The notes under the pieces: generated by a model
Told to the model about the DNA's origin: nothing
The model's input: the letters and a program-made list of their open reading frames with translations, nothing else
Database searches by the model: none
IMG/VR virus record: IMGVR_UViG_3300023202_000007
Coordinates: 1-46,127 of that record
Direction: 5' to 3' (one strand)
Origin: a virus
Length of the DNA: 46,127 nucleotides
Shown here: piece by piece, positions 6,090 to 46,127 of the stretch
Layout: each line of letters starts with the position of its first letter
Numbering within the stretch: the stretch's first letter is position 1
Position numbers and translations under genes: made by a program

Positions 6090-6370
6090 TATTGACCTCC
6101 TATTACTCTAATAAAGGCCGGAACGGCCCAATTTACAAGAGCTAGCATGAAAGGAATAAAAAGCGTACCAAAAGCCATTATGCGTCCGTAAGCTTTTTCT
6201 ACGTTCGCAAGGCGGTTTTTGATTTCCTTAGTTTCTTCTTGTTGGTCCGCTCTCATCTTTCCTATATCCTGCAAAACGTGACTAACATCGGTAGATAGCT
6301 CTCCTAATATGAAACCCAGTGTAGTACTGTTTACAGAGCCATCTTCTTTTTCTAGTTGGCTTCTATCCAT
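6089..6370 (-). CDS. Coiled-coil plus C-terminal TM protein, holin candidate
   Basis: A 93-residue protein. Residues about 20-65 are a charged helical segment (EETKEIKNRLANVEKAYGR); residues about 67-90 form one strong transmembrane helix. The layout resembles XhlA-type or class-III-like lysis proteins and the small membrane protein encoded beside the terminase in many T7-like phages. AAGGTAG lies before the start at 6370. It overlaps the end of the TIM-barrel gene by 19 bases. With a separate 3-TM holin at 2.5-2.9 kb, it may be an accessory holin or antiholin. Confidence 0.65.
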   Translation of the reverse strand: MDRSQLEKEDGSVNSTTLGFILGELSTDVSHVLQDIGKMRADQQEETKEIKNRLANVEKAYGRIMAFGTLFIPFMLALVNWAVPAFIRVIGGQ

Positions 6371-9021
6371 GATCTACCTTGTAGCCAGTGCCCCACGTTG
6401 TAATTAGCCCCGTCAGACCACACGTCCTCGAACCTAGGAAAAGCAGGCCACGGCCTAGCGTCCCAAGTCCAAGCGATCATCATAGTGTAATCAATGCAGT
6501 ACTCTCCTGTAAGGGAGCTTACCGGATTATTTCCATCTTCCGGGTTCCAGTATTCTGTCATTGCTTGATAATACGCTTGCTGAATGCGGTCGTCTCTGGT
6601 GCCGTCTGAGAAAAACGGCAAGACACTTTCTTTTGATTTAGGGTCTACAAACTTGTTCGGCTGATTAGTACCTTTATCAATAGCTGGGCATCCGTACTCG
6701 GTGTACACGATGCGCTTAAGTTCAGGCACCCATTCAGTCGGGAACAAATTTTGCGTTCCATCTTTGATATCGTAATGCAAGTTCTGCCAAGCGATCTTGT
6801 GCGCTTTGTCTCTGTACCTGTATTCTGATATCGGTGTGCGAATTTGAGATTGCCTGTCGAACAGATCAACGTATTGGTAATCCCAACCTTCTCCGCCCTC
6901 AATTTGCGACTTAAGATAGCCTATATCGTAGATGCTGTCGAACTGAGCGTCATCAATAGCTAGTTCGCTTCCCTGCCAGTCCGAAATGGGAAGATAATTG
7001 TCGATACCAACGAAATCAATGTTTTGGCTTGCCCAAAGACGGTCAAGATGCCATATGCTATTAAAGCCGCCAGCGGTATTGTAGTTCCTAGGCATGAACT
7101 CAGACCAGTCACAAGCGTAAGTAATTTCCGTGTCATCGCCAAGGATACTACGCACATCGTTCGCAAGTTCGATAAGCTTTTGTACAGCCGGAAAAGAATG
7201 ATCCCCGTCCCTAGCTGTAGTCAGTCCTCGCATTTCTGTAGCAATAGCAAAGGCGTCTACTCCGCCTGCAAGGTTGCACAAGTGCGCGTAATGCAGGATC
7301 ATTCTTCGGAATTTGTACTCAGCAGGCCCACTGTATTGAACAGTAGCATTAGCCTCGTCCGGAGTGAAATCCGTGGGTTTACAGCTTCCGAAGAAATTCT
7401 GCACTTGCGCTGTAACTGCGCTCGTGCCTTGATCGCTGGCCGTTGGTTGAATGCGCCCCCTCCACGGGTAAGCCCCTTGCGGCCCGCTCTCATCCGGGTC
7501 AGGGAGCCTTTGGAAATCTGTGATATCCATAAGGATGAACGGATAGAACAGAACTTTGTACCCGCGAAGTTTCATCTCTTTAATACCCTCAATAATACTG
7601 CGATCAGAGGGAGTTCCCCCGTAAGCTACCTTAGGGTTTGTTAGAGAGAAAATAGTGGTGTTGGTGCTGTAGAACCAAGGCTGGTCCATGTTTTCTTTGT
7701 CCAGAACGAACTCGACATAACTAAATGTCCCGTCAGTAGGGAAATCTACAGCAATTTCTGTCCAAGTTTTAGCTGGGACAGTTTTAGGCTCTGGAGAAAC
7801 GATGTACGAGTTTCCTGGGCCACCTTTACGAGCAGCGGGCTTAAAAACCCGTTGTACAGGAGACCAAACAAAAGTTCTCCAGCGGTAATACCCGTAAGGA
7901 ATGTTCCCTCCTGGCCCGTCAGCGTAGTTCCACGGAGAATATGCTTCTTGGTCTGTACTGGTAGTTCCTGAGTCGCAAAGCACAATACCAGCGCTTTGAT
8001 CCTCAAATCCAGTAGGATCAACGTACGGCTGCCCGACTGTTGCATCCGGGTCTACAGAGGCGTCGTAGTTTTGCGTTACAGTAAATCCATTCCTACCTAA
8101 AAGGAACTGGACAAACACAGGGTTAAACTCTGTAGGGCTTTCCCAGAAAAGAGACGGAGTTTCGTAGCTGTCTCGTCCAAGACCTTGCACTAAGTACGAA
8201 AAAGGTACGCTGTCGCCTTCTGATGTGTCAAGTTCTATGGCAATGGGTGGAGACACAGTGTCAAGAACGCGGTCTGCCGCAATATCATTCCATGCTCCAT
8301 CTGTACTACGAGTTACCTCTACAGCAATCGCTTTAGTAGCTGACGGGATATCTTGGGCACCGGAAAGAATGCTACCCGAAAGCGGACCTGAAACCCCTTG
8401 TGTCTGGTTCTCGGTAGGCAGCTGCACTTCTGATAGCAGTCCCGTCCCGTTAGTGTTTTCGTAGAACCTAATAGTGATGTTAATGGTTACTTCTGTAGCC
8501 GCTGAAACAGAGTAGTTGTATTCTAACAGTACGTCCGTGCTACCATCAGTAATCCGAGTAGGAACAATAGTGGTGTTCTCAAGGTTGTAAACAGTTCTAG
8601 TTAGCACGCCGTTAGCGCCTACATCCCATGCTCCTAGTTCGTCGCTAATAGAAATCTCCCCGCCAGCCCCACCGGGGCGCTCTAGCAGAAATTTTTCGGT
8701 CTTGGGAACAATATCGCATTCGTTCAAACGAAGATCAGTTCCAAACCACGAGCAAATAAGAGATATCCATTTAGTGTCCGGAAGAACGTCCCTAAGATTA
8801 TCCAGACTACGTTCCAGATTAGTTTGCACAGGCGCAGGCGGAATTTGAGGAACTAGGTCCTCTGGTTGCCATTGCGTGTTCTCAGGTACATCTTCCTCTA
8901 GAAATTCTGACGTAAATTTAGTAGGAGTCGTTCCGTACACCCATTCACCAGTAGAAGGAAGAAGAGATACGCCTGTAAACAAAGATTTAGGAGTGCTATT
9001 ACTCTTAGATCGAAGGATCAT
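6352..9021 (-). CDS. Large tail protein with GTA-type TIM-barrel domain
   Basis: An 889-residue protein. The N-terminal half is beta-rich and tail-like. From about residue 480 a TIM-barrel glycosidase-like domain begins, with TYACDWSEF, IDFVGIDNYLPISDW and KRIVYTEYGCPA. These blocks are characteristic of the TIM-barrel domain in the large tail-tip ('megatron') protein of alphaproteobacterial gene transfer agents and related phages. In the virion it probably sits at the tail tip and may bind or degrade cell-surface glycans. It follows the fibre-anchor gene by one base. The domain call is good; the substrate is unknown. Confidence 0.8.
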   Translation of the reverse strand: MILRSKSNSTPKSLFTGVSLLPSTGEWVYGTTPTKFTSEFLEEDVPENTQWQPEDLVPQIPPAPVQTNLERSLDNLRDVLPDTKWISLICSWFGTDLRLNECDIVPKTEKFLLERPGGAGGEISISDELGAWDVGANGVLTRTVYNLENTTIVPTRITDGSTDVLLEYNYSVSAATEVTINITIRFYENTNGTGLLSEVQLPTENQTQGVSGPLSGSILSGAQDIPSATKAIAVEVTRSTDGAWNDIAADRVLDTVSPPIAIELDTSEGDSVPFSYLVQGLGRDSYETPSLFWESPTEFNPVFVQFLLGRNGFTVTQNYDASVDPDATVGQPYVDPTGFEDQSAGIVLCDSGTTSTDQEAYSPWNYADGPGGNIPYGYYRWRTFVWSPVQRVFKPAARKGGPGNSYIVSPEPKTVPAKTWTEIAVDFPTDGTFSYVEFVLDKENMDQPWFYSTNTTIFSLTNPKVAYGGTPSDRSIIEGIKEMKLRGYKVLFYPFILMDITDFQRLPDPDESGPQGAYPWRGRIQPTASDQGTSAVTAQVQNFFGSCKPTDFTPDEANATVQYSGPAEYKFRRMILHYAHLCNLAGGVDAFAIATEMRGLTTARDGDHSFPAVQKLIELANDVRSILGDDTEITYACDWSEFMPRNYNTAGGFNSIWHLDRLWASQNIDFVGIDNYLPISDWQGSELAIDDAQFDSIYDIGYLKSQIEGGEGWDYQYVDLFDRQSQIRTPISEYRYRDKAHKIAWQNLHYDIKDGTQNLFPTEWVPELKRIVYTEYGCPAIDKGTNQPNKFVDPKSKESVLPFFSDGTRDDRIQQAYYQAMTEYWNPEDGNNPVSSLTGEYCIDYTMMIAWTWDARPWPAFPRFEDVWSDGANYNVGHWLQGRSWIEAN

Positions 9022-23457: not shown

Positions 23458-23810
23458 AGCCCTGCACTCGCTTGCCTTCTAGGCATACCCGCTGATTGCT
23501 GCGGAGCTACACCGCCGACCCTAGCTGACACGGAGCCTTGCCTGTTAGTACCTGCGCCTGCGCCTGCTGCGGTCCCTGTAGCTGCTCGGGATGCCCGATC
23601 CCGGCCTAGCTGGATAACCGCGCCAGTTTCGTCCCGTGCCGCGTCTACCTTAGCTCGTTCTTTTGCCTCTGTAATTTGTTGCTCTCGTGACTTCTTAATC
23701 TGAGCAGCCTGCTTTTTAGCAGCTTTTCTTTGTTGATTAACTGAGTGAACTGTGGCGGCTGCGCCTACAGCAGCAGCCCCAACTAAAGCAATGGTTGTTA
23801 AAGCTGCCAT
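23454..23810 (-). CDS. Small Ala-rich protein with N-terminal hydrophobic helix
   Basis: A 118-residue protein. Residues 2-22 form an Ala/Val/Gly hydrophobic helix (TTIALVGAAAVGAAATV), then comes a strongly basic/charged helix (QQRKAAKKQAAQIKKSREQQ) and a flexible Gly/Ala/Arg tail. Small proteins of this layout sit just upstream of the portal in many T7-like and marine podophages and are probably minor virion or membrane proteins. Overlaps both neighbours by 1-4 bases. Family not confidently recognised. Confidence 0.7.
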   Translation of the reverse strand: MAALTTIALVGAAAVGAAATVHSVNQQRKAAKKQAAQIKKSREQQITEAKERAKVDAARDETGAVIQLGRDRASRAATGTAAGAGAGTNRQGSVSARVGGVAPQQSAGMPRRQASAGL

Positions 23811-24223
23811 TATTGTCCTACCAATTTTCTGTAGCTGGCCTCTACTTTCTGATACCCTTTTCTTTCTAGCAGTTTATCAACCACAGGGTTAGTCCATAGA
23901 GTGCTCATCCTAATTTCATCAACGCCTTCCTCGTATCCCCGCTCTTCAAAAGCCGGGAGAAGGGCTAGTCCATCTTTTCCTGTACTAAACCAAGCTGTTT
24001 CAACTAGAGCCCACCAATCCCTAAGAGGGTCTTGGACTATGATACCTGTGATACCTCCATGCTCAGTCCGGAGTACTACACCGTAGGGACTATCTAGAAG
24101 ATGCACTAAGTAATCTACTAGTTTATCCGGATTAAGAGGAACGTCGTAGTAAGCTCGGTTGAACTCCATAGCTTTATCTACTAGGAACTCTAGATCATCG
24201 TAATCACAGTTCCGGACTGTCAT
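23810..24223 (-). CDS. GNAT-like acetyltransferase domain protein, T7 gp13 position
   Basis: A 137-residue protein with a GNAT-type layout: N-terminal helices, beta strands around GVVLRTEHGGITGIIVQD, and a C-terminal VVDKLLERKGYQKVEASYRKLV segment typical of the fold's end. Its place just before the portal gene corresponds to the small internal or acetyltransferase-like protein of T7-like and cyanophage genomes. It could be a virion assembly protein using the fold structurally; no substrate can be deduced. Confidence 0.6.
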   Translation of the reverse strand: MTVRNCDYDDLEFLVDKAMEFNRAYYDVPLNPDKLVDYLVHLLDSPYGVVLRTEHGGITGIIVQDPLRDWWALVETAWFSTGKDGLALLPAFEERGYEEGVDEIRMSTLWTNPVVDKLLERKGYQKVEASYRKLVGQ

Positions 24224-24456: not shown

Positions 24457-24640
24457 ACTATCTCCTACTAGTATATACCCTAGTATATTATATTATAGTA
24501 TTACCCTAGTATTATACTAATATATTATATTATAGTATTACCCTATTATATTCACAGGGTTTATATAGTATATATATATATACAGACAGATAGAGGTATT
24601 AACCTTTATCTGATAATACAGGTATAATCCTATATCTATT
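24457..24640. promoter_or_regulatory. Very AT-rich region ahead of the late genes
   Basis: This stretch is almost all A and T with punctuating CCCTA words. A 25-base sequence occurs twice (24484-24508 and 24521-24545, 37 bases apart), giving repeated TATAAT-like boxes on the minus strand within TAATACTATAATATAATATA. It is well placed for a late-gene promoter, a replication origin, or both. TAATAC resembles the 5' end of T7-type promoters, but the rest does not match, so no specific promoter is claimed. Confidence 0.5.
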
Positions 24641-24714: not shown

Positions 24715-26403
24715 TTATTCGCAAGTCCTGTTACCACTCTCCGGGTCAACATAGCATGCTGTACCTTCTTCATCCTGAACTGCGTTCAAAATACCAAAGC
24801 GTTTACCAGCAGCACGGAACGTTGTACAACCTTTAGCACCCCGGTCATAAGCTTGCATATAAACGTCTTTGAAGTCCTCGAAGGTAACATTATCTCCGAT
24901 GTTGCAAGTCTTGCTTACACTGCTATCGCAGTAGTACTGTGCAGCAGCTAGCACATCTACGTGTTCTTGCGCAGTAATCTTATCTGCGGTGATACAGTGC
25001 ACTCCCCATTTCATAAGAGCATAGTCTCGTGCTCTCATGACCTCCGGTCCTTCTTTAGTAATGACAGTGCGGTCTACATCATGCGAGAACACCGGCTCGA
25101 TACCGGAGGATACGTTGTCTGCTCCAAGACTGATTGTACCTGTAGGTGCAATAGAAATAAGGTGCGAGTTCCTAATTCCTTTCTCACGAATGATTTCTAC
25201 GGTACTATCAGAAAGCCGTTGGATGTACTCGCTGGCGAGATACTTAGTTTCGTCGTACAACGGGAAAGAACCTTTTTCTTCTGCCAGATTAGCAGAAGCT
25301 TTGTAAGCTGCATTAGCTAGGTACTTCATTAGAACGATGAGAAAATGATTAGCTTCCTCAGAGCCGTACCGCATACCAAGTATTTCTAGGACATTTGCTA
25401 GCCCGGTAATACCTAGACCCATCCTGCGCTTGCTCTTAGCTTCGATATCTTGTTCTTCCAGCGGGTACATTGTTTCGTCAATGACATTATCCATCATACG
25501 GACTACTTCAGGAATGTCTTCGAAAAATATATTCCACGCAAAGAAAGGAACGCCTTTTGCAAAATCTACGTACTTAGTCAGATTAAATGATCCAAGAAGG
25601 CATGCTCCGTACGCAGGCAAAGGTTGCTCCCCGCATGGATTAGTAGCTGAGATATCTTCACAGTACCAAAGATTGTTCATCTGGTTGATCCTGTCGATAA
25701 AGATAACTCCCGGTTCTGCCCAGTCCCAAGTGCTGTGCATGATCTTATCCCAAAGAGCACGAGCATTGACACTGCGGTACAGCCTATTACGAAATTGCAG
25801 AAAGAACTCCCTATCTTCTTTTACTGCTCGCATGAACTCGTCAGTAACGAGAACGGACATATTGAAGTTCGTGAGTTTATCGGAATTATTTTTAGCAGTG
25901 ATAAACTCTTCGATGTCCGGGTGATCCACACGAAGCGTGGCCATTTGAGCACCCCGCCTATGCCCTGCACTAGAGATAGTCCCGCACACTGCGTTCATAA
26001 TTTGCATGAAGGATACAGGACCTGATGCATGCGATTGCAGTGTCTTAATCATATCCCCCCTGGGTCGAATGTCTGAGAAGTCGTATCCTACGCCGCCACC
26101 CATGCGCATAGTCTGTCCTGCCTCAGTTGCTACTTGCATAATACCAAGAAAATCGTCGGGCACCTTGCGCATAACGTAGCAGTTAAAAGCGGTTACTTCC
26201 CTAGTTCCTCCTACTCCGGATTGAACCCGGCCAGCGGGGAGGAACCGCTGGCTAGAAAGAATGTCGTAGCATTTATCGAAATGCCTTTCATCGTCAGAGA
26301 GTGCGTAAGCGATGCGGTAGCACTTATCATCGAAAGTCTCTCCGATTTGCCTGTGCTTATCCTCGTCTGCCCACTTAGCGATATCAGTAATAGGTCCGGT
26401 CAT
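24715..26403 (-). CDS. nrdJ: Ribonucleotide reductase, class II (B12-dependent)
   Basis: A 562-residue reductase making deoxyribonucleotides. The family blocks are clear: SQRFLPAGRVQ, FNCYVM (an active-site Cys), NPCGEQPLPAYGACLLGSFNL (Cys/Glu radical site), SIAPTGTISLGADNVSSGIEP, and a C-terminal redox Cys pair in the last 15 residues. There is no ATP-cone at the N-terminus and no small-subunit gene nearby, both favouring the adenosylcobalamin-dependent class found in several marine podophages. AAGGATACACA precedes the start. It ends the replication operon. Confidence 0.9.
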   Translation of the reverse strand: MTGPITDIAKWADEDKHRQIGETFDDKCYRIAYALSDDERHFDKCYDILSSQRFLPAGRVQSGVGGTREVTAFNCYVMRKVPDDFLGIMQVATEAGQTMRMGGGVGYDFSDIRPRGDMIKTLQSHASGPVSFMQIMNAVCGTISSAGHRRGAQMATLRVDHPDIEEFITAKNNSDKLTNFNMSVLVTDEFMRAVKEDREFFLQFRNRLYRSVNARALWDKIMHSTWDWAEPGVIFIDRINQMNNLWYCEDISATNPCGEQPLPAYGACLLGSFNLTKYVDFAKGVPFFAWNIFFEDIPEVVRMMDNVIDETMYPLEEQDIEAKSKRRMGLGITGLANVLEILGMRYGSEEANHFLIVLMKYLANAAYKASANLAEEKGSFPLYDETKYLASEYIQRLSDSTVEIIREKGIRNSHLISIAPTGTISLGADNVSSGIEPVFSHDVDRTVITKEGPEVMRARDYALMKWGVHCITADKITAQEHVDVLAAAQYYCDSSVSKTCNIGDNVTFEDFKDVYMQAYDRGAKGCTTFRAAGKRFGILNAVQDEEGTACYVDPESGNRTCE

Positions 26404-26412
26404 TGTGTATCC

Positions 26413-28875
26413 TTATCCAAAGAAGAATTTGCTGCGTTTGATTTGCTCTAGGTCTAGATCACCGCAAGGCGGTAGTTCAGGAAGTTCAAGATCAGTGCTG
26501 TCTTCCACCTGATTCTTGAAATCCTCTAGGATGCACGTACTGTGCAACTCTACGAATTTGTCCCTGATGATCTTTTGGAGCTTAGGAATTTCGCATGCGT
26601 GCACACCGAAATCGTCATGTATCATTGCAAAGTGCGTGATACCCTGCCTAGCCCCTTCTTGTACAACCATGTGCATATGCGAGGAGTCGATGCTGTGCAC
26701 CAAGTTAGGGCTAGAGCCGCTTGCAGCTTTGTAAATGTCTATTCCGGGCTCTTCTTTCTTTATCTGTAGTTGAACCCTGCCGCCAATCTGCGCCTCAATT
26801 CGCTTCTTAGAGTACAGCGAAGAAAATTGTACGAGGGGAAAACCGATAGGGTTGTAGTACACAATGGGCTGGCCTTCTTTAGCCAGATACCTAGCGGACC
26901 TTTGCATCCACTTCATAGCAGCGCGAGCAGCAATTACTACTTCGCTAATACTACCCCAGATGAGTTTAGCTAGGAACACGCTGTGCTTGAAAGCTGTGTT
27001 AGCAGGGAAGTGATCTATCTTCTGGTTAATATACCATTCGTGCACTGACTGCGTGCAAGTCTGCAAGGTTGATCCGTAAGGCATAGTCATGACAGGTTTC
27101 TTAGTTAGCTTCCTAGTCATCTTACCTTCGGACAGTTTATTGAACAGTCCCTTCCAATTAGCTGCCAGAGTGTATTCTTCATGCGAAGGATCAGTAAGTA
27201 TTTCATCTAGGTGTTGAGTAGCTACATTTGCTACGTCCTGATAAATATCTGCTGGTTTATCGCTGGGAATTAGATTAACAGATTTGGCACCAACAGAATC
27301 ACGAAGCATAGCTGAGAAATGCTGCAACCCATTGCATGACCCGTCCATAGCGATAGGAAGAGCGGACTTGTACTCGTTAGGGTTCCGCATTCTAGCAGCC
27401 TTCGAGTACTCCATGCACCAAGCTAGGAACTGAAACGGTTTATCGGCGTCTTTCCATACATTCGAATGCCCGATAGGATCAAGCCCAGCTTGAATAAAGC
27501 TCTCTTTATTTTCGTTCACCCATCTGATACGATCTTCGTAAGATACTTTGTCGTACCCGTATTTGTTCGCACCGTGCACCCTGAACCAAGCCCACCCCTG
27601 TTTACCTAGTTCCCTAGACTCCCCGAACTTAAGCAGCGCCTTAGATACATCGCTACCCTGCGGGCTAACGCCACTTGTAGTGCAGTACGCTCGGCCACGG
27701 AAATCAAGCTGGTAAACCATCCAGAGCAAGTTGTACGGCTTTAATCGTGCAGCCATACGCATAGCCCTGACGACTGACATTAGCGAAGCCTTTCGGGCAG
27801 CCTCCAGGTTATGCAGAATGCGAGCCTCGTTTTTCCAAGCGTCAAATTTCTCTCTAGCTTCGCCTACTAGATCGACCGGGCGCTTATCTTGTGGAATTGG
27901 TGCATCAGGAATTTCGTAAGGCTGGGACCGTGGCATACCAATCTCAAGAGCATTGTCCCAGATGTATTGGACTATTTCAAGAACTCCGGTGTTAATGCGC
28001 CAGCTAGTGTTCTGCATGCAATTAACGCTGTCGTACACTGTAGGCATAATTGCGTTGTCCAGCAAAGGCATCTGTGCATCGCGCTGTTGCCCGCTCTTAG
28101 TTTTGACCAGCGGGGTAAGCCTTCTAAGCTTATTAGTATAAAACCCACCAGTTTTCCATGCAGTCCATTCAACAGGGCGAATAATACAAGGCATTCGATC
28201 AGGCAGCATAAGCTCAATGCTTTCATCGTGCTCTCTGATCCATTGCACCACTTCATCAGAAGGACCTACGTGTACCTGATTGCCTTTGTTAGTCCGCTTG
28301 ACAAGATCGCTAGCTTTCTCTGCTGCGCTAATAAGCAGTAGACCAACTTCTACATGCACTTCATTCGTCCAGCTGTTCCAAGTAATCAACTTGTCATTCA
28401 TCCTGTGCACTAGAACTTTGTGCCTATGCGTATAGCTAGTACTAGATCGAGCATCAAGGTCACGAATAACAGCGTTAAAATACTCCGGGGTTTCTATCTC
28501 GAACTTGCTGAACCTGAGTTCGTCCTCTACCATTACCCCGATGTTAGCTGCTACACGGGTAAGCGTAGCTGGCTTGTACACTACTTCGATAATACGATGC
28601 AGCGTGAACATAGCTAGCTTGTCGTAATCAACGCCTTTCAGCAGCCGGGTGTACATCCTGCGTTTCCTAGCGGAAGCTGCTAGGTTATGCACATCATGAG
28701 CTATCTGCTCGGACACAGCATCTAGATAAACTTTGATGAGCCGGGAACCAGCAGAAGTATCTGTGAACCGCTTTCCTTGTATAGCGTCATCCTGTTGCGC
28801 CCTGTATCGGCTCACGCCTAGCGCAGTCATACTCTGTTCCCATTTCTTTTGGTCACTTACTTGAGGATCGAGCAT
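26413..28875 (-). CDS. Single-subunit DNA-dependent RNA polymerase
   Basis: An 820-residue T7-type RNA polymerase that should transcribe the phage's own promoters. The start at 28875 is behind CAGGGAGAAAGA. Catalytic residues align with T7: Asp511 in DGSCNGLQHFSA (T7 D537), Lys592 and Tyr600 in KKPVMTMPYG (K631, Y639), and Asp754 in HDDFGVHA (D812). The first 23 bases overlap the end of the endonuclease VII gene. Its location after the replication genes and next to the virion block follows the phiKMV arrangement. Confidence 0.97.
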   Translation of the reverse strand: MLDPQVSDQKKWEQSMTALGVSRYRAQQDDAIQGKRFTDTSAGSRLIKVYLDAVSEQIAHDVHNLAASARKRRMYTRLLKGVDYDKLAMFTLHRIIEVVYKPATLTRVAANIGVMVEDELRFSKFEIETPEYFNAVIRDLDARSSTSYTHRHKVLVHRMNDKLITWNSWTNEVHVEVGLLLISAAEKASDLVKRTNKGNQVHVGPSDEVVQWIREHDESIELMLPDRMPCIIRPVEWTAWKTGGFYTNKLRRLTPLVKTKSGQQRDAQMPLLDNAIMPTVYDSVNCMQNTSWRINTGVLEIVQYIWDNALEIGMPRSQPYEIPDAPIPQDKRPVDLVGEAREKFDAWKNEARILHNLEAARKASLMSVVRAMRMAARLKPYNLLWMVYQLDFRGRAYCTTSGVSPQGSDVSKALLKFGESRELGKQGWAWFRVHGANKYGYDKVSYEDRIRWVNENKESFIQAGLDPIGHSNVWKDADKPFQFLAWCMEYSKAARMRNPNEYKSALPIAMDGSCNGLQHFSAMLRDSVGAKSVNLIPSDKPADIYQDVANVATQHLDEILTDPSHEEYTLAANWKGLFNKLSEGKMTRKLTKKPVMTMPYGSTLQTCTQSVHEWYINQKIDHFPANTAFKHSVFLAKLIWGSISEVVIAARAAMKWMQRSARYLAKEGQPIVYYNPIGFPLVQFSSLYSKKRIEAQIGGRVQLQIKKEEPGIDIYKAASGSSPNLVHSIDSSHMHMVVQEGARQGITHFAMIHDDFGVHACEIPKLQKIIRDKFVELHSTCILEDFKNQVEDSTDLELPELPPCGDLDLEQIKRSKFFFG

Positions 28876-29245
28876 TCTTTCTCCCTGCTTGAGCTTTCTT
28901 GTTCCTCGCCAGACGCTTCTCTGCCTCGGTTTTATGCGAAGGATGCAGCACGCCACCATGCTGCGGCACGCTATGCCGTTTCCAATACTCGGCTAGATTA
29001 AGCAGCCATTCAACCTCGTGGTCTTTCATAGCGCGTCTTGCTATGTTCCACACTTTACCTTCCATTCCGTTGCAATGCCTGCAAAGCACATCTCGTACAA
29101 AACCCCTGCGGTGACAATGATCTAGGGTTGGCTGTTTATCTTTAGGCCCCATTTTGCCACCGCAAAGAGGACAGGTGTTCTGCTGTTTACGCAGAAGCAC
29201 CGTCCGAGCGTGCGGAACTTCGCTGACCTTAAGTTTCCTGTGCAT
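28853..29245 (-). CDS. Recombination endonuclease VII (Holliday junction resolvase)
   Basis: A 130-residue His-Me finger nuclease. Zinc ligands are CPLC (25-28) and CRHC (55-58); the catalytic region is LDHCH (41-45) with Asn59 following. This is the endonuclease VII arrangement of T4 gp49. It would resolve branched replication and recombination intermediates before packaging, in place of T7's unrelated gp3. The C-terminus is very basic. It overlaps its upstream neighbour by 17 bases and the RNA polymerase start by 23. Confidence 0.9.
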   Translation of the reverse strand: MHRKLKVSEVPHARTVLLRKQQNTCPLCGGKMGPKDKQPTLDHCHRRGFVRDVLCRHCNGMEGKVWNIARRAMKDHEVEWLLNLAEYWKRHSVPQHGGVLHPSHKTEAEKRLARNKKAQAGRKNARSSSK

Positions 29246-40683: not shown

Positions 40684-41067
40684 TTAGCTCCCTTGCCACA
40701 GCCGCAGCGTAAAGGTAGCAGTTCCCTGTTCAGGGATAACTAGGTTATCTGGTTGCACGATAACTACAAGCGGCTTATCCCATACAGCTACTGTATCCGA
40801 TGGGTCTCCGTTGTATCCCGGATGTGCCGGATTGTTCTCAGTGCTGTCGTACCTGAACGTTACTGTACCGTACTGCGTTTGCACAGACAGCCAGAAATAC
40901 CCGTTGACTAGCCCAGGGTCATTCAGTAGCCGTATATCGTTACGCACTTGCACAGTACCGATAATCCACGGCTCCGGGCTTTTGGTGAACTTGTACTCTT
41001 GTGCTGGAACATTCTGCGGAGCGCAAGCGTACATCGCGAGCAACAAGCTCATCTTAAGCATGCGCAT
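40684..41067 (-). CDS. Early exported protein with signal peptide or lipobox
   Basis: A 127-residue protein. From the ATG at 41067 there is a short basic start and a hydrophobic stretch, MLKMSLLLAMYACAPQ, which may be a signal peptide; Cys follows MYA, an imperfect lipobox. The mature part is beta-rich and aromatic, like a small periplasmic or outer-membrane-facing protein. An upstream GTG would add nine residues. As an early exported protein it is a candidate for superinfection exclusion, but no family was recognised. Confidence 0.6.
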   Translation of the reverse strand: MRMLKMSLLLAMYACAPQNVPAQEYKFTKSPEPWIIGTVQVRNDIRLLNDPGLVNGYFWLSVQTQYGTVTFRYDSTENNPAHPGYNGDPSDTVAVWDKPLVVIVQPDNLVIPEQGTATFTLRLWQGS

Positions 41068-41476
41068 GACGAGTTCCCGGAGAAATGATGTCACGGACTT
41101 GCGAAGCGTTCATTTTGCTCATTTCTTGCTTGACAGAAAAGTGCGTAGTCCGGGTGATCTGCACTTCTTGCACATGAACCAAATCAACGGGGACGTTGTA
41201 CACATTTTTGTAGTGCACGATCAGGCTACGCATCCTGCCGATTATGCGGTTGCGCTCTACTTCATTCACAGTGAGCACTATGCTGAGGGACTGTTCTTCC
41301 TGAGTTTCTGCGGTGTACGTACGCTTAGTTTCGCATGCATCGGGTTTCCAGTACCTCAGCCCGCCGCAGACAGTGCATCCTCCTGTGTACTCAGAGATAC
41401 CGTCGGCGATATCCCGGATAAAATTTGAGTAAGCAGAACCTAGCGGCACGCCCATGATAAAAGTGAGTTCCAGCAT
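41054..41476 (-). CDS. Hypothetical early protein
   Basis: A 140-residue soluble protein directly downstream of the LuxI-like gene (10 bases). The N-terminal part has GGCTVCGGLRYW, a Cys-containing turn; the centre (LSIVLTVNEVERNRIIGRMR) suggests a small alpha/beta fold such as a ferredoxin-like domain. No catalytic motif identified. Being next to the acyl-homoserine-lactone synthase homologue it may be co-expressed with it. Confidence 0.7.
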   Translation of the reverse strand: MLELTFIMGVPLGSAYSNFIRDIADGISEYTGGCTVCGGLRYWKPDACETKRTYTAETQEEQSLSIVLTVNEVERNRIIGRMRSLIVHYKNVYNVPVDLVHVQEVQITRTTHFSVKQEMSKMNASQVRDIISPGTRHAHA

Positions 41477-41486
41477 GTTTCTTTCC

Positions 41487-42020
41487 TTAGTGCCAGATAG
41501 CTATATTCCGGTCCGGATCACCATCCGGGTCGAGCAAGATGCTTTTTGCCGTCGTATTGTAAAACGCTCGCCACAAAGCCAGCGTCCTGCGGTCTGCGCA
41601 TCCGTAGATATTCGCTCCGTATTTACGCTCAGAGAAATCATGCATCCAGCGTTGCATACTTTTCTGGATATCCTCTCGTTGCATTCGGTACATGCTGTTA
41701 ACGTGCACGCACGCCCTGCTTACTTCATAGGAATCCGGATGAATAAGCGGATAGAACTGCGGCCATATTTCCCGCGTCATACTTGCAGAGTGCGGGAGAA
41801 CACGGAAACTTCCTAGAATACGGTGCGGGTTCCGAAAATCGATGAACCAGACGTAAATAGCGCTCTCGGCATCGAACTGGTCAATTTCGTACTGCCCTCC
41901 TACGTACGTAGGAATATCCCATTCGAACCTGTCGATAAAATGCCGCTTGCGCGCTTTTGCCATTTCCAAGAACACCCAAGCGGGAAGTTCCTTCCACGTA
42001 CTTTTTTTGTACGTAATCAT
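41487..42020 (-). CDS. LuxI-type acyl-homoserine-lactone synthase homologue
   Basis: A 177-residue protein starting at 42020 (GGAAGGG upstream, ATGA overlap with the preceding stop). LuxI enzymes join acyl-ACP and S-adenosylmethionine to make homoserine-lactone signals. The residues conserved in that family are all present at matching spacing: Arg24, Phe28, Trp34, Asp47, Asp50, Arg73, Glu99 and Arg102. Residues 23-50 fit the PROSITE autoinducer-synthase pattern (A-R-x3-F-x2-R-x2-W-x-I-x8-E-x-D-x-F-D). It is slightly shorter than bacterial LuxI proteins (about 190-220). No LuxR-type gene is present. Production of a signal is inference; SAM consumption as anti-restriction is an alternative. Confidence 0.85.
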   Translation of the reverse strand: MITYKKSTWKELPAWVFLEMAKARKRHFIDRFEWDIPTYVGGQYEIDQFDAESAIYVWFIDFRNPHRILGSFRVLPHSASMTREIWPQFYPLIHPDSYEVSRACVHVNSMYRMQREDIQKSMQRWMHDFSERKYGANIYGCADRRTLALWRAFYNTTAKSILLDPDGDPDRNIAIWH

Positions 42021-42322
42021 TGCATGCGCCCTTCCTTGACAGCTTCGTGCACGTAAGAGTTCCATTCAGCCCATGTGCAAAAAGCTTCGTACCATGCACT
42101 AACTCCCGCAGGATGCTCATCGTACTTGGATAGAACGAGCCTGCCTGCTGCTACATCGAAGTGATCGAAACGAAGCGGTGGAATAGTCAAAGGGTCGAAA
42201 TCTCTTTTCGCAATCGCCATGCCCTGCGGGTAATAGCTGATTACTCGCATGTAATCGAACACCTGCACTTCTATTTTCAACTCGCCCGCAGTTTCGCAAG
42301 GAAAAGCTGTGATTACCGGCAT
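42017..42322 (-). CDS. Hypothetical early protein upstream of luxI-like gene
   Basis: A 101-residue protein starting at 42322 behind GGAGAGTAAA, ending in an ATGA overlap with the LuxI-like gene, so the two are translationally coupled. The N-terminal half is beta-rich (LKIEVQVFDYMRVISYYP) and the C-terminus is helical with several Trp residues. Not recognised. Coupling makes it a candidate partner or regulator of the synthase. Confidence 0.7.
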   Translation of the reverse strand: MPVITAFPCETAGELKIEVQVFDYMRVISYYPQGMAIAKRDFDPLTIPPLRFDHFDVAAGRLVLSKYDEHPAGVSAWYEAFCTWAEWNSYVHEAVKEGRMQ

Positions 42323-42985: not shown

Positions 42986-43219
42986 TCAGAAGATCACGGC
43001 GAGCCCCTCTACCTCATGCGGGTCGCGATCCTGCACAAGAGCTTCGATTTGACGCTGGCTGAACACACCGCGCCATTTGAACGCGGAAAGATCAGTGCCG
43101 TCCTCGTTCTGCATAGCTTGCATGTTCTCGGTGTACGCATCGTGCGCTTCATCGAAGTCATCGAACGCTGGGCTGATGATGATGAAGTCCTGAGCGTTTT
43201 TTGCTGCCCATCTGTACAT
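42986..43219 (-). CDS. Small acidic early protein
   Basis: A 77-residue acidic protein starting at 43219 behind AGGAGAACTGTC, 10 bases past the kinase-like gene's stop. It begins with a beta-rich segment (MYRWAAKNAQDFIIISPAF) followed by an acidic helix (DDFDEAHDAYTENMQAM), then RQIEALVQD. Not recognised; composition is like DNA-mimic or enzyme-inhibitor early proteins but no specific claim is made. Confidence 0.65.
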   Translation of the reverse strand: MYRWAAKNAQDFIIISPAFDDFDEAHDAYTENMQAMQNEDGTDLSAFKWRGVFSQRQIEALVQDRDPHEVEGLAVIF

Positions 43220-43229
43220 GACAGTTCTC

Positions 43230-43820
43230 CTAGATTATTTGCACTTGGCTGTGCAGGTTGAGTTCTTCGAGCATGGTTCGCATAGCCCGAAGATTAACGG
43301 ATTCTTCGTGCGATGTGTCCTCGCGCGTCCAGCCTTTCACAGTTACCGGGTCGGTCAAAACGCACGTACCTGTTTCATTTTGCATGACGTTATGAAATTG
43401 ATCCCGGTGATGCATTTCCCAGTCTTCAATAACCGTAACACCGTGATCCCGCATGTACTTCCGGAACACAGAGAGAGAAGCACTGAAATTTTCTGCGTGT
43501 GTTTTTACCTCGGAGTAAGACTCGCAGGACTTGCAGGACTCGCAGGAGGCTTCCTGCAAACGCTGCATGACAGCGACGCAGGTCTCGTTCTGTACGTCAA
43601 TGCGCATGCCGTGAATGACCGGATGGAAGTACTCGGCTGTACCCTGCTGATGCTTGTGCATGCACCACATAGCCCAAAACACCCACCCATCCATCAGAGC
43701 GTTATCGCACACCTTGCACGCATTGCCGTCAGGCAGGATGTACACAGTGCTGAATACGCCTGATCCGCTTCTTACCGATGAAGAAGCGGTGTCGGCATCC
43801 GGTATTGCCACGGAAAGCAT
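43230..43820 (-). CDS. Minimal protein kinase-like early protein (T7 gp0.7 analogue)
   Basis: A 196-residue protein starting at 43820 behind AAAAGGAACGCGAG. A kinase glycine loop is visible (GSGVFSTVY, 19-27) with Lys36 in ACKV. The catalytic loop is HRDQFHNVM with Asp140 and Asn144. The metal-binding Asp is in LTDP (Asp157) instead of DFG. Between the lobes is a Cys-rich insertion (CESCKSCES, 93-101) from a short DNA repeat. T7 gp0.7 phosphorylates host RNA polymerase and shuts off host transcription; a similar role here is inferred from position and motifs. Confidence 0.6.
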   Translation of the reverse strand: MLSVAIPDADTASSSVRSGSGVFSTVYILPDGNACKVCDNALMDGWVFWAMWCMHKHQQGTAEYFHPVIHGMRIDVQNETCVAVMQRLQEASCESCKSCESYSEVKTHAENFSASLSVFRKYMRDHGVTVIEDWEMHHRDQFHNVMQNETGTCVLTDPVTVKGWTREDTSHEESVNLRAMRTMLEELNLHSQVQII

Positions 43821-43960: not shown

Positions 43961-44003
43961 GCGGATACAAAGTATCCTGTAGTGCGGATACAGAGTATCC
44001 TGT
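43961..44003. repeat. Paired GGATAC three-base-loop palindromes, 23-bp period
   Basis: Two units of TGCGGATAC-ARA-GTATCCTGT: stems GGATAC/GTATCC at 43963-43977 (loop AAA) and 43986-44000 (loop AGA), 23 bases apart. Inverse orientation relative to 631-680. A degenerate copy with a four-base loop lies near 44464-44480 before another early gene. Confidence 0.8.
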
Positions 44004-44479: not shown

Positions 44480-44980
44480 TTAGTGCGCAGGCTCGGTCTG
44501 CGTGAATTCGCGGAGCTTCCGAAGCATGCCGGGATCGACCTTGCTGTTATTGCCCATTTTGTTGATATCGGTTTGCATGCGAGCGATCAGGCTGTGCACC
44601 ATCTTGGCCGGATCAGCGATGGGCTTGTACTCCTGCTCGCGCTTGAAGTCAGTCCACATGATACGCATGGCGTCATCCAGACGGAATGCCTTGGTCTTGC
44701 TGTGCACGAACTTCTTGCTCTTGCTGTCATAGACGACAGCCCCGAACGTTTCGATGAAGGCACGAAGCGCGTTCACGCGGCTACCCTTCGGCATGCTGAC
44801 GATGAGCCGATTGATCAGCGTCACATCTCCGTGCTCGACGTGATGCTGCATGGCTGACAGAGCCGCGATCTGGATTTCTCGATCCAGCTTCTTCCCACGG
44901 CGAGCGATGCTGTCGATAGCTTCTGCGATCGCTTTGCTGCCTTCAATGAGCTTGAAGGACGCGATGTTTTTCTTAGTCAT
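44480..44980 (-). CDS. First early gene, conserved-type hypothetical protein
   Basis: A 166-residue protein starting at 44980 behind AGGAGAGAACT; the first gene transcribed after the right-end leader. Helical and basic, with DREIQIAALSAMQHHVEHGD, then LINRLIVSMPKGSRVNALRAF, and FVHSKTKAFRLD. I recall similar proteins in other T7-like phages, often unnamed, but assign no function. Its composition and place suggest early host takeover or DNA binding. Confidence 0.8.
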   Translation of the reverse strand: MTKKNIASFKLIEGSKAIAEAIDSIARRGKKLDREIQIAALSAMQHHVEHGDVTLINRLIVSMPKGSRVNALRAFIETFGAVVYDSKSKKFVHSKTKAFRLDDAMRIMWTDFKREQEYKPIADPAKMVHSLIARMQTDINKMGNNSKVDPGMLRKLREFTQTEPAH

Positions 44981-45964: not shown

Positions 45965-46127
45965 TTACCTAGAGTTATACTAGGTTATATATATATTTAT
46001 TTATATACTAGGATATACTAAGGTATTGATATCCTTATGTTATTCTATGCAAAGCATAGGTAAGAAAGAGCTAGACAGATACTGGCTTTCACCTAAGTAT
46101 CTGATTTTATTGCATAATCTCCGGATT
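45965..46127. repeat. Right copy of terminal direct repeat
   Basis: Matches 1-163 at 162 of 163 positions. The single change (A at 46091 for G at 127) falls in the inner GGC-TTTC-GCC stem of the hairpin and weakens it. See the left copy for interpretation. Confidence 0.8.

Follow-up and report, generated by a model that had tools for sequence, protein, structure and literature searches.

What would a phage gain from making a quorum-sensing signal for which it carries no recognizable receptor? The question is raised by a gene at positions 41487-42020 (minus strand) of a viral genome, which encodes a compact, 177-aa protein that the original prediction described as a LuxI-type quorum-signal synthase expressed early in infection. 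The window analyzed here, that is, the whole stretch of DNA, is an entire IMG/VR virus record of 46,127 bases.

The carrier genome

A 163-bp direct repeat is present at both ends of the window (positions 1-163 for the left copy and 45965-46127 for the right, no strand assigned), with copies that are 99% identical, so this whole record is very probably a complete genome. The genes of the window lie on the minus strand and include a T7-like set that comprises a single-subunit RNA polymerase, DNA polymerase, DnaB-like helicase, primase and ligase. The T7-type RNA polymerase (26413-28959, minus strand; phrog_414, E 3e-261) defines the phage group and, together with T7-type packaging and the terminal repeats, places this virus in the Autographiviridae (T7-like phages). 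Its closest cultured relatives are the Paracoccus phages ParMal1 and ParKuw1 (TerL at 79% for ParMal1; RNA polymerase at 65% and 60%, respectively), and this kinship makes a marine-type alphaproteobacterium within the Rhodobacterales its probable host. Searches of the window genome returned no tRNA and no integrase match.

Several other features of this genome deserve mention. An 889-aa late protein (6352-9021) matches, over residues 459-884, the 'megatron' baseplate protein of gene-transfer agents (NF048004, 629 bits, cut-off 800), which is unusual for a T7-like phage and is kept in ParMal1 (63%). An adenosylcobalamin-dependent ribonucleotide reductase is encoded at 24715-26403 (TIGR02504, 548 bits, cut-off 400) and has no match in ParMal1, and a second GNAT-like open reading frame (23810-24223; phrog_1249, acetyltransferase) is kept there at 57%. 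Two tandem 33-bp AT-rich repeats (24480-24549), which separate the reductase gene from the late genes, contain TAATACTATAATATAATATA on the minus strand, resembling the start of a T7-type promoter. In addition, palindrome-like repeats around GGATACAAAGTATCC (249-354, 640-677 and 43963-44000) occur almost solely near the genome ends, with 11 matches against 0.85 expected.

Position of the luxI-like gene

The luxI-like gene lies ~4 kb from the right genome end, upstream of the primase and helicase genes, and from this position we infer that it is an early gene, among the first to enter the cell. The start of the early region is marked by its first conserved gene (44480-44980, minus strand; phrog_1448, E 1.3e-41), homologues of which are found in ParMal1 and in two IMG/VR loci (L050 and L051). 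Also upstream are a 196-aa open reading frame (43230-43820, minus strand) with a C-terminal stretch, residues 144-175, like the T7-type gp0.7 host-takeover kinase (phrog_15752, E 2.1e-5), and a 77-aa open reading frame (42986-43219, minus strand) with a 38% match in L050 and L051. On the downstream side, the gene is flanked by a conserved early gene for a 140-aa protein (41054-41476, minus strand; 32% in ParMal1 and 31% in L050 and L051). Since the flanking genes at 44480-44980 and 41054-41476 are kept in ParMal1, L050 and L051, all of which lack luxI, the luxI-like gene forms an accessory insert within the early genes. The search for a promoter signal gave none, and sigma-70-like sites were fewer than in shuffled sequences. 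Nearby, positions 40684-41094 encode a small protein whose N terminus has a hydrophobic stretch and a cysteine (LLAMYACAPQ); it has no family match and is possibly an exported lipoprotein.

Assignment to the LuxI family

The luxI-like open reading frame begins with ATG and has a good ribosome-binding site, AAGGAAGG, upstream. Its start overlaps (ATGA) with the end of a 101-aa open reading frame (42017-42322, minus strand), which has a weak match in Paracoccus phage ParKuw1, so the two are likely to be co-translated. The Pfam autoinducer-synthase family PF00765 scores the protein at 32.1 bits, above its gathering cut-off of 24, and aligns residues 19-143 to positions 12-140 of the 183-position profile, which upholds the prediction of a LuxI-type gene. 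A phmmer search with the protein alone against all solved structures retrieved RpaI (E 1.7e-4) and TofI (E 2.4e-4). A profile of the protein and its relatives matched, among PDB sequences, BjaI (1.5e-39), RpaI (1.5e-38), MesI (1.7e-38), TofI (9e-35), LasI (4e-24) and EsaI (3e-17), values that call for the same caution as the fold match discussed below.

Identity to any characterized LuxI is ~20%, and the TraI-type NCBIfam models NF010408 and NF052393 score the protein at 28.7 and 25.7 bits, far under their cut-offs of 292 and 250; it is a family relative that stands outside the TraI-type subfamily. PHROG 31881, listed as of unknown function, is matched by 41487-42020 and also matches phage and bacterial LuxI proteins; this PHROG is probably a phage AHL-synthase family.

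The active site

The PROSITE autoinducer-synthase pattern matches residues 23-50 (ARKRHFIDRFEWDIPTYVGGQYEIDQFD; 41871-41954, minus strand), a stretch that holds R24, F28, W34, E45, D47 and D50. This is the sole match in the six-frame translation of the window, and none was found in 300 shuffles. The other half of the active site falls within residues 73-102 (41715-41804, minus strand) and supplies R73, E99 and R102 (EVSR). Thus both the signature and the full set of eight LuxI residues claimed for the protein (R24, F28, W34, D47, D50, R73, E99 and R102) are present, their EsaI counterparts being R24, F28, W34, D45, D48, R68, E97 and R100. These catalytic and S-adenosylmethionine (SAM)-site residues are established for EsaI, LasI and LuxI.

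To place these residues in the family, relatives gathered from phages, IMG/VR, a genome-contig scan and 385 alphaproteobacterial genomes were combined into an alignment of 41 different proteins. R24, F28, W34, D47, R73, E99 and R102 are invariant (41/41), E45 and D50 are found in 40/41, and no other column filled in most rows is conserved as well, the few further columns that were flagged being apparently insertion sites of the window protein. Overall identity in the alignment is ~20-30%, and the phage proteins are ~30% identical among themselves. The retention of the active site while the remainder diverged to this extent argues for selection on catalysis.

Predicted fold

The AlphaFold2 model, built from nine input sequences, is weak, with a mean pLDDT of 57, a pTM of 0.55 and pLDDT values below 50 at residues 131-158. 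The first matches of this low-confidence model are the solved AHL synthases BjaI, RpaI, MesI, TofI and LasI. In Foldseek, all nine matches with E < 0.001 are AHL synthases, and in VIA the top eight are AHL synthases with Z from 11.4 to 10.1, other GNAT proteins then following from Z 10.0; the best VIA match is BjaI (Z 11.4, 152 residues, rmsd 3.2), with TofI and LasI at Z 10.1. The structure comparison that had been proposed alongside the prediction turns out in its favor, within the bounds of a weak model. Because the Z margin is modest, and because the AlphaFold2 input alignment itself included LuxI proteins that partly guided the fold match, the predicted GNAT-like alpha-beta-alpha fold of AHL synthases agrees with the family assignment without proving it. 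Toward the C terminus, the final quarter aligns poorly, with the profile alignment ending near residue 154; in bacterial LuxI enzymes this part helps line the acyl pocket. Bacterial AHL synthases are 190-230 aa in length, with a longer C-terminal part, and are mostly paired with a LuxR, whereas the window protein has 177 aa. Nevertheless, the CoA-dependent enzymes BjaI, RpaI and MesI and the ACP-dependent enzymes TofI, LasI and EsaI share with it the family signature, the catalytic residues and the fold class.

The same comparisons bear on whether the protein could instead belong elsewhere in the GNAT superfamily, as a related N-acyl transferase (for example, one like FeeM or Acetyltransf_5) whose substrate would be a different amine or a protein of the host. 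The related GNAT family PF13444 (Acetyltransf_5) gives a weak match at 18.8 bits (cut-off 22.4), and FeeM appears lower in the VIA list at Z 9.0. However, PF00765 scores higher and above its cut-off, PF21926 (FeeM, N-acyl amino-acid synthase) is absent from the Pfam matches of the protein, and similarly weak secondary matches are seen with bacterial LuxI proteins run as controls. In addition, the N-terminal SAM-binding signature is complete, and the plasmid matches of a relative from Roseobacter phage RDJL Phi 2 are, where an annotation is shown, annotated as AHL synthases. We consider this alternative unlikely; HMM, profile, fold and alignment evidence supports membership of the LuxI-type AHL synthase family.

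Relatives among phages

A search of 50,697 phage records with the window protein gave five matches, in Rhodobacter phage RcCWillis, RDJL Phi 2 (two records), Dinoroseobacter phage R26L and a gut contig, none of which is T7-like as judged by name or size. No relative was found in a single-protein scan of IMG/VR, and three alignment-based IMG/VR scans, which rest on short patterns, gave no matches beyond RDJL Phi 2 and the contigs L008 and L009. The PF00765 cut-off is also passed by the proteins of RcCWillis (41 bits), RDJL Phi 2 and R26L (58 bits). The RcCWillis protein, gp81 (UUV43253.1; L002:5968-6477), is annotated as a 'hypothetical protein' and by its PF00765 score is an unrecognized phage LuxI homologue.

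In a phylogenetic tree, the window protein, on a long branch, forms one clade with RcCWillis and RDJL Phi 2 (98/93), apart from the sampled bacterial LuxI proteins. R26L is placed elsewhere in the free tree, but a constraint joining it to the phage clade is not rejected and gives a slightly better likelihood (p-AU 0.62), so a single lineage of receptor-less phage proteins that includes R26L is possible, with caution on account of the long branches. Since three unrelated phage types share the clade, the gene seems to move among phages. Phylogeny had also been proposed as a means to see whether the gene was captured from the host; a recent capture appears not to have taken place, because the nearest proteins in the tree are LuxI proteins of Rhodobacterales phages and not sampled bacterial ones.

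The individual carriers differ in other respects. RDJL Phi 2 gp55 (AKQ75845.1, annotated as N-acyl-L-homoserine lactone synthetase) is likewise compact (184 aa) and has all of the LuxI residues, and its phage, like the window phage, has no LuxR match and no integrase match. However, RDJL Phi 2 is a siphovirus-type phage of 63.5 kb, its protein is 30% identical to the window protein, and its synthase gene, rather than being part of an early operon, is a solitary gene next to the terminase on the opposite strand. RcCWillis gp81 (169 aa) is similar in size and also comes without a LuxR match, but it is 31% identical to the window protein and resides in a 68.8-kb member of the Casjensviridae that is possibly temperate, since it has an integrase and an annotated immunity repressor. 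R26L resembles the window phage as an integrase-less roseophage with a receptor-less LuxI-family gene (its AHL synthase is gp44 in PMC11981692, probably XBW75317.1 in the differently numbered PP882867.1), but its synthase is closer to ordinary LuxI.

Receptors

The original prediction that the phage has no LuxR gene stands, as neither PF03472 (LuxR) nor PF00196 (GerE) has a match in the whole window genome, and no cognate luxR was found adjoining luxI as in the prophage module of Roseobacter. PF03472 is also without a match in RcCWillis, RDJL Phi 2 or R26L. Elsewhere, the gut contig (MT835580) has a PF03472 match beside its LuxI, and LuxR-like open reading frames, read by eye, adjoin LuxI in L008 and L009. 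The prophage modules in question, xre-luxR-luxI in Phaeobacter inhibens, are phage-encoded LuxI systems from the same bacterial group, but those prophages are temperate and a cognate LuxR drives lysogeny (PMC13345283), whereas searches for a LuxR and for an integrase gave no match in the window phage.

Proposed role

The reading that we favor, with a probability of roughly 0.6, is that the gene encodes a working, compact AHL synthase of the LuxI family, made early and acting as a one-way signal; in this proposal, the catalytic activity and its AHL product, the timing, the receptors and the advantage to the phage are all inferred. The protein would be produced early in infection through early transcription and would join an acyl group from host acyl-ACP or acyl-CoA to SAM, releasing AHL and methylthioadenosine. 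The targets of the AHL could then be LuxR-type receptors belonging to the host, to neighbors that are not infected or to prophages in the cell, the window phage being a one-way sender because it has no receptor of its own. One likely benefit would be a change in host physiology or surface receptors ahead of lysis, and another would be that resident quorum-sensing prophages are held in lysogeny and do not compete.

Precedents exist for both kinds of target. In a Roseobacter lysogen, the AHLs that phage enzymes produce affect the circuits of both the host and rival prophages, and those of Phaeobacter prophages push rival prophages to lysogeny, one of them also activating host quorum sensing (PMC13345283). 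In Rhodobacter, the capsule, which is a receptor of the phage-like RcGTA, is under quorum-sensing control (PMC10218006). A receptor-less sender would fit manipulation of capsule or receptor control, or of rival prophages. On the other hand, a metabolomics study of R26L found AHLs of no kind, not even those of the host (PMC11981692), which counts against this explanation.

The enzyme might alternatively serve as a SAM sink, using up SAM or making methylthioadenosine early in infection so that restriction-modification or methylation is blunted, functionally like the T3 SAM hydrolase. All LuxI enzymes use SAM as a substrate, the residues of the SAM site are conserved here, no receptor is encoded by the phage, and the early region is the usual place of anti-restriction genes; less SAM early in infection would be a possible outcome in common with T3 SAM hydrolase and other phage SAM-degrading enzymes. 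Among the Pfam, PHROGs and NCBIfam matches of the window protein, no T3-type SAM hydrolase is listed. However, the acyl-transfer pair E99/R102, which a pure sink would need less, is invariant. Furthermore, AhyI, a characterized LuxI enzyme, is slow, with a kcat of 0.006-0.023 per second, or about one turnover per minute (PMC8188788). At this rate, 1,000 copies would make an estimated ~11,000-41,000 molecules in 30 min, roughly 20-70 uM in a 1-fL cell. Such an AHL concentration is far above the usual need of receptors, and the SAM pool, which is replenished, is a few hundred uM. A yield that is ample for receptors and modest against the SAM pool favors signaling, and we hold the sink to be improbable. 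Equally improbable is a catalytically idle LuxI relic or decoy, without a role or acting by binding (for example, to acyl-ACP or host LuxR), for although the protein is short, divergent and on a long branch, and the gene is absent from the nearest phages, every catalytic column is preserved even though the phage proteins have diverged strongly, and the open reading frame, ribosome-binding site and coupling, which decay would erode first, are intact.

Extended beyond the window phage, one-way signaling leads to a broader and tentative proposal, which we rate as distinctly less secure: that integrase-less Rhodobacterales phages have in common a separate family of LuxI enzymes, passed on horizontally and unaccompanied by a receptor, that serve as one-way chemical effectors. 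Infection would flood the cell and its surroundings with AHL, and this may reprogram uninfected neighbors (for example, their surface receptors) or lock rival quorum-sensing prophages in lysogeny.

Relation to known phage quorum sensing

Phage-encoded LuxI proteins have already been annotated individually, such as the AHL synthetase of RDJL Phi 2. The R26L synthase has been discussed as hypothetical (PMC11981692), a coral phage that carries a synthase together with a LuxR-type regulator has been described (PMC11309003), and LuxR receptors on phages are known (PMC6456758). In the open-licence literature, no description was found of receptor-less LuxI proteins as a group or of one encoded among the early genes of a T7-like phage, no paper was found on the RDJL Phi 2 synthase, and only a genome announcement was found for RcCWillis.

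Known phage quorum sensing is centered on temperate phages, which listen (LuxR) or both speak and listen (luxR-luxI) in choosing between lysis and lysogeny. The window phage, which shows neither a receptor nor an integrase, faces no choice of this kind, so that an intact signal synthase in this phage must act on someone else. It thus offers a testable case of phages that would manipulate the communication of bacteria or of rival phages, for which RDJL Phi 2, RcCWillis and R26L provide cultured relatives.
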